Shown one piece after another: positions 60,709 to 63,414 of a DNA stretch of 64,000 bases. The notes beneath the pieces were generated by a model. The model did not search any database and had not been told where the DNA came from. It saw only the letters and a list, made by a program, of their open reading frames with translations. Positions within the stretch are counted from its first letter, which is position 1. The number at the start of each line of letters is the position of its first letter. Source of the DNA: Arthrobacter crystallopoietes (GTDB lineage: Bacteria; Actinomycetota; Actinomycetes; Actinomycetales; Micrococcaceae); NCBI RefSeq assembly GCF_017603825.1, contig NZ_CP072014.1, forward strand, positions 620,001 to 684,000, in the 5' to 3' direction. The position numbers and the translations under genes are program-made.

Positions 60709-62079
60709 TTAGCCGTGCTCGACGGCCATGTTCGAGAAGCGTGAATAGTGGCCTTGGAAGCCGACCACGATGGTCTTCGTCGGGCCGTTACGGTGCTTGG
60801 CCACAATCACGTCGGCTTCACCTGCGCGAGGTGACTCTTTGTCATAGATGTCCTCGCGGTGCAGGAGGATGACCATATCCGCATCCTGCTCGATCGAGCC
60901 CGATTCACGAAGGTCGGAGACCATGGGCTTCTTGTCCGTACGCTGTTCGGAACCACGGTTCAACTGCGAGAGCGCAATCACGGGAACCTCGAGTTCCTTA
61001 GCCAGCAGCTTGAGCGCACGCGAGAACTCGGAAACTTCCTGCTGGCGCGATTCCACGCGCTTGCCGGAGGACATCAGCTGCAGATAGTCCAGGACCACCA
61101 GTTTGAGGTCATGGCGCTGCTTAAGACGACGGCACTTGGCCCGGATTTCCATCAGCGACATGTTGGGGCTGTCGTCGATGAACAGCGGAGCATCGTTCAT
61201 GCGGCCCATAGTGGTGGCGATCTTGCCCCACTGCTCGTCCTTGATGGTTCCCTTGCGCAGGTCCTGCAGGCCGATGGTTGCCTCGGCGGAGAGCAGACGC
61301 ATGGCGATCTCGTTCCGACCCATTTCCAGGGAGAAGAAGACCGTCGTCATGTTGTTTTTGATGGCTGCGGACCGGGCAAAATCCAATGCGAACGTCGATT
61401 TGCCCACAGCCGGCCTGGCCGCGATAACGATCATCTGTCCGCCGTGCAGGCCCTGGGTCAGTTCGTCGAGTTCGTAGAAGCCGGTGGGAACACCCGTCAT
61501 GCCTTCGCCGCGATGGCCGGCGGACTCGATCTCGTCGACCGTGCCTTCAATAATGTCCTTCAGCGCGACATAGTCTTCAGCCGTGCGGCGCTCGGCCACT
61601 GTGTAGATCTCGGCCTGCGCCTGGTTGACGATATCGTCGACTTCGCCATCCTGCGAGTATCCGAGCTGGACAATCTTGGTTCCGGCATCCACCAGCCGGC
61701 GGAGCACAGCACGTTCACGCACGATCTCCGCGTAGAAGCCGGCGTTGGCAGCAGTGGGGACGGACTGGATGAGGGTGTGCAGGTATGCGGGTCCGCCGAT
61801 GCGCGAGATTTCGCCGCGCTTGGTCAGCAGGTCGGAGACGGTGACGGCGTCCGCAGGTTCGCCGCGGCCATAGAGGTCGATGATGGCCTCATAGATCGCT
61901 TCATGCGAGGGTCGGTAGAAGTCGACGCCGCGCAGCACCTCGACGCAGTCGGCGATGGCGTCCTTGGACAGCATCATGCCGCCGAGTACTGACTGTTCGG
62001 CTACCAGATCCTGAGGCGGGGTACGTGCGAAATCCGGTTCCCGGCCAGCCTGGGCGGAGTCGGCATGTACTAAAGTCAC
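60709..62079 (-). CDS. dnaB: Replicative DNA helicase DnaB
   Basis: A 456-residue hexameric helicase. Residues ~20-125 are the N-terminal DnaG-binding domain (QDLVAEQSVLGGMMLSKDAI), then a linker, then the RecA-like motor: Walker A ARPAVGKSTFALD, Walker B region KLVVLDYLQLM, a SQLNRGSEQRTDKKPMVSDL segment (DnaB motif 4-like) and VAKHRNGPTKTI. There is no intein. GTG 62079 is the start, with AGCAGG upstream. Actinobacterial dnaB commonly follows rpsF-ssb-rpsR-rplI, which is not the case here; a DnaA-box-rich region lies upstream instead. Confidence 0.96.
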   Translation of the reverse strand: MTLVHADSAQAGREPDFARTPPQDLVAEQSVLGGMMLSKDAIADCVEVLRGVDFYRPSHEAIYEAIIDLYGRGEPADAVTVSDLLTKRGEISRIGGPAYLHTLIQSVPTAANAGFYAEIVRERAVLRRLVDAGTKIVQLGYSQDGEVDDIVNQAQAEIYTVAERRTAEDYVALKDIIEGTVDEIESAGHRGEGMTGVPTGFYELDELTQGLHGGQMIVIAARPAVGKSTFALDFARSAAIKNNMTTVFFSLEMGRNEIAMRLLSAEATIGLQDLRKGTIKDEQWGKIATTMGRMNDAPLFIDDSPNMSLMEIRAKCRRLKQRHDLKLVVLDYLQLMSSGKRVESRQQEVSEFSRALKLLAKELEVPVIALSQLNRGSEQRTDKKPMVSDLRESGSIEQDADMVILLHREDIYDKESPRAGEADVIVAKHRNGPTKTIVVGFQGHYSRFSNMAVEHG

Positions 62080-62250
62080 CGCTGCCTGCTTTCTCTACTA
62101 AAACGACAAACCGGGCAATCGCATCCCGCCTCGCCCGTTGAAACGGGTATATCAGCCGCCTCCGACGCTTTCCGCTGCTCCCGGTTGAGGGCACGAAAAA
62201 CTAGAGACCGGATCGCGGTCTGTTGAGGGATACTCCGCAACGTTAGCCCT

Positions 62251-62519
62251 CTATCCACACAGAACCAAGCGAGTTATCCACCGGCTCTGTGGATTAATTG
62301 TGGATTAGGCGGCGTGTCTTGTGCACAGCCTGTGTGTACAACTGTGGATAACAAAGTTAACTTGCGAGTAACATGGCTCTGACCTGCGGAAACTTTTATT
62401 CCCCTCTGTGGATTAAAAGATTTTCTGTGGACCATTCATCCACACCGCTCGTGTTGACAGATGCCTCACATAGCCCTACAAGCTGCTTATTCACGTCGTT
62501 ATCCACAACGTTTTCCACG
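62251..62519. other. Cluster of DnaA-box-like 9-mers upstream of dnaB
   Basis: Two perfect TTATCCACA boxes (62343-62351 minus, 62499-62507 plus) and many one- or two-mismatch forms: 62251-62259, 62274-62282, 62288-62296 (minus), 62299-62307 (minus), 62407-62415 (minus), 62426-62434 (minus), 62436-62444, with weaker ones at 62319-62327 and 62511-62519. They flank an AT-richer zone (62351-62425). The whole gap 62080-62670 has no supported gene. It could be a DnaA-binding regulatory or titration region, or a replication origin; the sequence alone does not decide. Confidence 0.75.
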
Positions 62520-62670: not shown

Positions 62671-63414
62671 ATGGAGCTTTTCCTGATCCCTCTGCTGATT
62701 CTGGTTGTCGTCGTTGTGCTCGGCCTGCTCCTGTTGAAAACGGCCAAACGCAGAGCCGCACCCACCAACGACGGCGGCGCAACCGGCCGCCGGCCCAACC
62801 TGACTGCGGCGCCTGCTACCTCCAAGGAGCATTCCGAGCAGGCCAGCAGCCGGCTGAACCAGCAGCAGCACACGGCTGTCTACTCCGCTATCGCAAGGGG
62901 TGATGCGCTGCGGGCGATCAAGGACTACCGGGCTGCGACCGGAGCCGGACTGCGCGAAGCCGCTGCCGCCGTCGCAAATATGTCCGCACACCCCCAGCCC
63001 TACACTCCCCCGCCAGGGCCCAAGCCGAAGGATGGTCCCGACACCGCCCAGCCGGAGTCGGTCGGCCCTACCGAGAGGAGCACCGCTTCAAAACCGGATA
63101 CTCCTCCTGAACCGCTCGCCACTCCGGAGTCAAGCGCCGCTGCCGACGCCTCGGCTGCCCGCGCAAGCGTCACTCCGGCCACGGGCTACCGTTACCGGGC
63201 CATCGTCTCCAAGGGCGATGAGATCAGGGAAATCGCGAGTACCCGGCTCAATGACGAGGTCTTTGCCAGGATCAGGGCGAGGGCGCTCGACGGCGACAAG
63301 GAAGCCGCGGTCCAACTGCTGATGGAACACTCGGACGCGTCCCAGCAGGAAGCATCCGGTTTTGTGGAACTCATCCACGACGAGCCCCCGGCCGGAGCCC
63401 CGGAAGGCCCCTGA
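62671..63414 (+). CDS. Membrane-anchored protein with bL12 C-terminal-like motifs
   Basis: A 247-residue protein. An N-terminal membrane helix (ELFLIPLLILVVVVVLGLLLL) is followed by KTAKRR. Residues ~60-105 contain a motif reminiscent of the ribosomal bL12 C-terminal domain: AVYSAIARGDALRAIKDYRA then TGAGLREAAAAV, where bL12 has I-K-x-V-R-x-x-T-G-L-G-L-K-E-A. A Pro/Ala/Ser-rich linker (~110-165) leads to a second helical unit (EIREIASTRLNDEVFARIRA, then AAVQLLMEHSDASQQEASGF). Function unknown. Start ATG 62671; no strong ribosome site seen. Confidence 0.65.
   Translation: MELFLIPLLILVVVVVLGLLLLKTAKRRAAPTNDGGATGRRPNLTAAPATSKEHSEQASSRLNQQQHTAVYSAIARGDALRAIKDYRAATGAGLREAAAAVANMSAHPQPYTPPPGPKPKDGPDTAQPESVGPTERSTASKPDTPPEPLATPESSAAADASAARASVTPATGYRYRAIVSKGDEIREIASTRLNDEVFARIRARALDGDKEAAVQLLMEHSDASQQEASGFVELIHDEPPAGAPEGP

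Follow-up and report, generated by a model that had tools for sequence, protein, structure and literature searches.

What is a dense array of DnaA boxes doing in front of the replicative helicase gene of Arthrobacter crystallopoietes? The window analysed here is a 64,000-nucleotide stretch of DNA, positions 620,001 to 684,000 of the single 4,381,539-bp contig. The array lies at about 682 kb of the contig, within the 591-bp gap between dnaB and a divergent open frame starting at 62671. A single dnaB match was found in the genome, and it encodes a full-length DnaB; the closest named DnaB among the matches listed (best 80 of 591, possibly without the record of the present genome itself) is that of Arthrobacter koreensis, with 96% protein identity. 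In at least 5 of 9 same-genus genomes dnaB carries in-frame inserts, and the dnaB genes of two congeners (L277 and L278) contain an intein (Pfam Intein_splicing and LAGLIDADG), of which the dnaB of the window is free. The features of the region are listed below in window coordinates; all boxes come from the motif scan, and further evidence is given in brackets.

60709–62079, minus strand: dnaB, replicative helicase, 456 aa, GTG start (Pfam DnaB_C, 2.2e-107; DnaB N-terminal domain, 1.9e-33)
62240–62245, minus strand: putative −10 of the dnaB promoter, TAACGT (sequence; conserved TANNGT column; fixed offset)
62251–62259, plus strand: DnaA box CTATCCACA within the −35/−10 spacer
62263–62268, minus strand: putative −35 (TTGGTT) of the dnaB promoter, with a 17-bp spacer to the −10 (sequence; same geometry in Streptomyces)
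62274–62282, plus strand: DnaA box TTATCCACC, promoter-proximal half of an inverted pair, 5 bp before the −35 (alignment)
62288–62296, minus strand: DnaA box TAATCCACA, the other, distal half of this pair, with 5 bp between the boxes (alignment)
62299–62307, minus strand: DnaA box TAATCCACA, in tandem with the 62288 box at an 11-bp step (distance analysis)
62319–62327, plus strand: weak box TTGTGCACA, its core TGTGCACA kept in 10 of 11 aligned relatives
62333–62341, minus strand: weak box TTGTACACA
62343–62351, minus strand: perfect DnaA box TTATCCACA, 55 bp from the 62288 box (distance analysis)
62389–62428, no strand: 40-bp stretch of lowest GC within the gap, 32.5% (base composition)
62407–62415, minus strand: DnaA box TAATCCACA
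62426–62434, minus strand: weak box TGGTCCACA
62436–62444, plus strand: DnaA box TCATCCACA
62454–62459, plus strand: possible −35 (TTGACA) of a divergent promoter with a weak −10 (sequence and a conserved TTGTCAAC-like block; inferred)
62487–62495, plus strand: weak box TTATTCACG
62499–62507, plus strand: perfect DnaA box TTATCCACA, close to the array's distal end
62511–62519, plus strand: weak box TTTTCCACG, the box of the array farthest from dnaB
62671–63414, plus strand: divergent open frame, 247 aa, without Pfam match (ORF list, Pfam; the neighbour differs in other relatives)

The 269 bp between 62251 and 62519 contain 13 matches to TTATCCACA with up to two mismatches and 8 with up to one. 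The sequence-only reading had described a cluster of about eleven boxes, two of them perfect, on both strands. The cluster, its two perfect boxes and their distribution over both strands are borne out by the motif count; the number itself becomes 8 or 13, according to the cut-off. When the same 269 bp were shuffled 3000 times with dinucleotides preserved, the mean counts were 0.08 (up to one mismatch) and 0.97 (up to two), with maxima of 2 and 5, and no shuffle attained either observed count, which rules out a chance cluster. The window was also scanned in 262-bp stretches at a 30-bp step, allowing two mismatches, and its densest spot elsewhere holds 3 boxes. Among 53 blocks sampled from the genome (712 kb including the window, about 16% of the genome), three exceed 4 boxes per 262 bp: the dnaB region with 13, the 936–942 kb block with 12 and the dnaA block at 918–926 kb with 9. 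The remaining 50 blocks reach at most 4. Thus the similar density in random intergenic regions that would have told against the site was not encountered in this 16% of the genome, where only the dnaA block and the 938 kb cluster are comparable. The array region is also poorer in GC than the window (47% compared with 64%).

Across the whole genome perfect boxes number 27 against 10 for the reversed motif, boxes with one mismatch allowed 387 against 227, and TCCACA-N2..32-TCCACA pairs 33 against 12 for the control. Two such pairs occur within 300 bp in the dnaB region, on the dnaA–dnaN side of dnaA, at 938.8 kb and at 4,054 kb. The last of these (genome positions 4054362–4054394) consists of three TCCACA cores in 33 bp that overlap into two pairs, and lies outside the other DnaA clusters.

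Could the array be a replication origin? The Pfam domain of dnaA was located at 922.3–922.8 kb, 240 kb from the array, and dnaA is flanked by box clusters of its own, at 921,669–921,826 in front and 923,405–923,603 behind. The adjacency to dnaA and dnaN by which oriC is recognised is absent at the dnaB array. GC skew is weak and was read from sampled blocks. Between 690 and 926 kb it is negative in 11 of 13 blocks, whereas 12 of 16 have positive skew between 942 kb and 3.2 Mb; the blocks at 926 and 936 kb have values of +0.005 and −0.027. On these sampled blocks the skew switches near 926–942 kb and not at 682 kb. The position of dnaA and the sampled skew both stand against a main origin at dnaB, and the unusually placed origin offered as one option by the sequence-only reading is given up here. 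An origin at this site, main or secondary, can still call on the positive skew of the adjacent 6-kb block (684–690 kb, +0.017), on a box lattice resembling that of dnaA/oriC loci (see below) and on base composition, the minimum GC over 40 bp being 32.5% at the dnaB array (62389) and 35% at oriC. The AT-rich 40-mer would leave a small opening for unwinding at the dnaB site; overall we regard an origin here as extremely improbable.

Conservation of the array was assessed by one rule: the 1 kb upstream of dnaB had to include a 300-bp stretch with at least three boxes (TTRTCCACA, up to one mismatch). Such a cluster was found in 29 of 30 relatives (the best 30 DnaB matches of 59 genomes searched), so that the lack of conservation among relatives proposed earlier as grounds for doubt did not materialise. 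It was also found in 70 of the 80 named loci that ranked highest among 591 confirmed ones, and in 27 of 40 class-wide genomes, hand-picked at about one per family from 118 together with four from the search of the 59 genomes, 8 of the 40 belonging to the own order. In 1 of the 40, at least three boxes were also present in a control stretch taken from farther upstream; this control was in most cases longer (about 1.5 kb), and its GC and coding content may not be the same as in the test region. Outside the class but within the phylum, 3 of 20 genomes (picked from 37 searched) carried a cluster, and conservation beyond the class is weak. The upstream frames vary among relatives while the array remains with dnaB. 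A link of the cluster to rplI or another neighbour was considered and rejected, rplI lying 5.3 kb upstream and the neighbours varying.

By the same rule the cluster is missing from 13 of the 40 class-wide genomes and from 10 of the 80 named loci (best 80 of 591); therefore the array is not indispensable. Upstream frames were inspected in 20 of 150 loci. In array-less Nesterenkonia (two) and Rothia (L148, L151, L155), a same-strand frame of at least 300 codons ends 85–96 bp before dnaB, and there are hints that the array may have been lost there when dnaB joined an operon. In Sediminivirga, also array-less, an equally long frame lies on the opposite strand and is uninformative for the operon idea.

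The boxes nearest to dnaB are closely docked to its predicted promoter. In an alignment of 11 relatives, GTGGATA directly precedes a conserved TTGG-like block in 9, with TANNGT about 17 bp further on. The order in Streptomyces is box, 5 bp, TGTGGATAA, 5 bp, TTGG, 17 bp, TANNGT; the layout listing from which it was read took in all 80 named loci (best 80 of 591), and some pairs in it (e.g. that of L007) are a second pair of weak boxes and not the promoter pair. The inverted pair was present in 41 of 125 regions. When TTG-17±1-TANNNT was sought near a pair, 28 matches were obtained, of which 27 fall at an offset of 27–29, 165 combinations of offset and spacing having been tried. The most frequent spacing accounts for 18 matches, 7 in the own family and 11 in Streptomyces. 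These pair counts, like the all-region distance counts below, are weighted heavily towards Streptomyces and Arthrobacter, the redundancy cut having been mild (125 of 150 regions kept). Most matches to the exact promoter geometry thus belong to the own family and Streptomyces; Nocardioides and others have the inverted pair without the exact TTG-17-TANNNT promoter.

The same gap may contain a promoter pointing away from dnaB: the 11 aligned relatives retain in part a plus-strand TTGACA-like block at 62454–62482. This block would speak for boxes that chiefly serve the divergent gene at 62671, or serve it and dnaB alike; the neighbouring frame differs, however, among relatives that keep the array, and the best conserved box pair adjoins the dnaB promoter. 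We consider this possibility very unlikely.

The spacing of the boxes was then compared between regions. Distances of up to 70 bp between boxes in the same, dnaB-ward direction (n = 261, 125 regions) fall at 9–13, 19–24, 32–35, 41–45 (with one at 47), 53–57 and 63–68 bp. A family-balanced set was compiled by taking a single genome for each of 39 family labels (38 families, one of them entered twice); 32 of these genomes have at least two boxes. In these 39 genomes all 55 of 55 same-direction distances between 14 and 70 bp lie in 11-bp bands, which cover 53% of the range and were set after earlier distance distributions had been viewed. The best period is 10.9 bp, with R of 0.73; random replacement of the boxes gave R of at most 0.48 in 5000 trials, none as strong as the observed phasing. 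Distances between boxes in opposite directions are also phased, less sharply, with R of 0.70 at 11.0 bp (n = 40) and 0.56 at 10.6 bp (n = 22). An origin of the lattice in two over-sampled lineages was rejected, as leaving out the own family and f35 (presumed to be Streptomyces) still gave R of 0.75 for 42 distances. Nor is the lattice unique to dnaB: dnaA/oriC loci share it, with R of 0.69 at 10.4–10.6 bp in a sample of 30 of 59 dnaA loci, mostly from the own family. From this similar period it follows that the lattice is a mark of DnaA assembly and not of dnaB alone. Eleven base pairs correspond to one 9-bp box plus 2 bp, and a 2-bp gap is preferred by E. coli DnaA for paired boxes, according to the section of PMC11317965 used here.

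Does the array act on dnaB, or does it bind DnaA for another end? If it were mainly a sink or nucleotide-switch site for DnaA, like datA, DARS or the Bacillus clusters, and stood beside dnaB by chance, its early duplication after initiation would lower free DnaA. Its box density at least equals that of the other clusters of the genome (13 compared with 9 and 12 per 262 bp), and in the relevant section of PMC7738170 the dnaB site is among the five top DnaA regions of M. tuberculosis. In the own family (37 genomes including the present one) dnaA and dnaB share a contig in 28; G010, whose record starts by dnaA, was left out of the distances. In the other 27 the separation is 19–261 kb, with the two genes divergent in 26 and dnaB less than 100 kb from dnaA in 22, a proximity that would suit a sink. 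In the 18 box-scanned genomes with both genes on one contig, however, the distance to dnaA varies about tenfold (25–261 kb) and the array is kept at dnaB, with its boxes docked to the dnaB promoter at fixed spacing. A mere sink needs neither linkage to dnaB nor fixed spacing, and both count against it. We therefore judge a role mainly as a sink to be unlikely.

The array is, as far as its sequence indicates, a real and conserved regulatory site of a known kind. The earlier proposal of a DnaA-controlled dnaB promoter is well supported by the sequence, the array staying with dnaB and being docked to the promoter in two families, and we consider it quite probable that DnaA binds and regulates here. 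That the regulation is an activation seems only somewhat the better guess, its direction being deduced from the promoter geometry and from one DnaA mutant in a distant genus. A plain promoter has no need of a 40-mer that equals the one at oriC in AT content, and the presence of such a 40-mer counts against a promoter-only reading.

Control of dnaB by DnaA might proceed as follows. DnaA would bind the inverted pair adjoining the −35; hand calculation puts the centres of the pair about 45 and 59 bp upstream of the presumed start. DnaA would then extend over the lattice by cooperative binding, with one protomer for every 11 bp as at oriC, and from there could contact RNA polymerase, most likely activating dnaB, so that helicase supply would follow DnaA activity. 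The further box between −35 and −10 was present in 3 of 6 same-genus loci scanned, the own one included (L007, L008 and L017); in this subclade full occupancy could repress the promoter. The array may also bind enough DnaA to be a minor sink; the titrating or reactivating site named by the sequence-only reading is conceivable as an additional effect of this sort.

A second non-origin cluster was found at about 938582–939298 of the genome (L001, 936001–942000), with up to 12 boxes per 262 bp (two mismatches allowed). It lies between a rhomboid and an alpha/beta hydrolase gene, after the cyclophilin and rhomboid genes, and two genes from crgA (941.9 kb). In gene order it matches the Rv0010c–Rv0011c DnaA site of M. 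tuberculosis, where we take Rv0009 to be ppiA and Rv0011c to be crgA. The genome thus has clusters at four places that match DnaA regions of M. tuberculosis: before dnaA, at oriC, upstream of dnaB and at 938.6–939.3 kb. In a class-wide sample of 30 of the 59 crgA loci found, some of them incomplete, at least two boxes occur in the 400 bp that follow crgA in 23 of 30, compared with 1 of 30 in each of two upstream control stretches; in the present genome these 400 bp are without boxes and the cluster lies further out. The section of PMC7738170 used here states that the Rv0010c–Rv0011c site has no obvious counterpart in other species. A wider scheme can be imagined, in which an ancestral actinobacterial initiation sensor, an oriC-like DnaA filament on the 11-bp lattice, would read the pool of active DnaA and by early duplication would set helicase supply and lower free DnaA, together with the crgA site; we hold it to be speculative and rather doubtful.

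These results suggest that control of the helicase gene by DnaA, as known from mycobacteria, is an old trait and widespread in the class Actinomycetes, and they describe how its sites are arranged. With the lattice and the fixed spacing to the promoter it becomes possible to test how an origin-like DnaA assembly works as a gene switch and in what way helicase supply may be matched to initiation in these bacteria. Our searches of the open-licence part of PubMed Central returned nothing on box layout at actinobacterial dnaB, and the portions of PMC13270200, PMC4447404 and PMC6478999 consulted have no bearing on it; within that literature we came across no earlier account of the class-wide conservation, of the lattice or of boxes docked at a fixed distance to the promoter.

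DnaA boxes also cluster away from the origin in datA and DARS of E. coli and in the Bacillus DnaA-box clusters. datA and DARS change the nucleotide state of DnaA with the help of IHF, and removal of the titrating Bacillus-type cluster alters the timing of initiation. These sites are defined by their effect on DnaA level or nucleotide state, whereas the dnaB array is tied to one promoter; we know of no settled datA/DARS-like system in these actinobacteria. In the DnaA regulon of E. coli, as given in the section of PMC11317965 used here, promoters are bound through double boxes 2–3 bp apart, the 2-bp gap being equal to the 11-bp step observed here. A double box is present at 15 of 16 bound regions there, compared with an array of 270 bp in the present case, and the bound regions that this section names do not include dnaB. 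DnaA of Caulobacter crescentus, a member of a different phylum, binds upstream of dnaB as proposed here (cited in PMC7738170). The closest parallel is mycobacterial. According to the same section of PMC7738170, DnaA of M. tuberculosis binds upstream of dnaB in vitro, ChIP-seq in mycobacteria also places it there, and lower binding by one DnaA mutant accompanies lower dnaB expression. That section does not include the box layout of the mycobacterial site; the pair, the lattice and the docking described here come from other genera. As in A. crystallopoietes, where the cluster lies directly upstream of dnaB, the site of M. tuberculosis and M. smegmatis is just upstream of dnaB and apart from oriC, and the array is thus of a known kind, DnaA binding upstream of dnaB having already been shown in mycobacteria (PMC7738170, same section).
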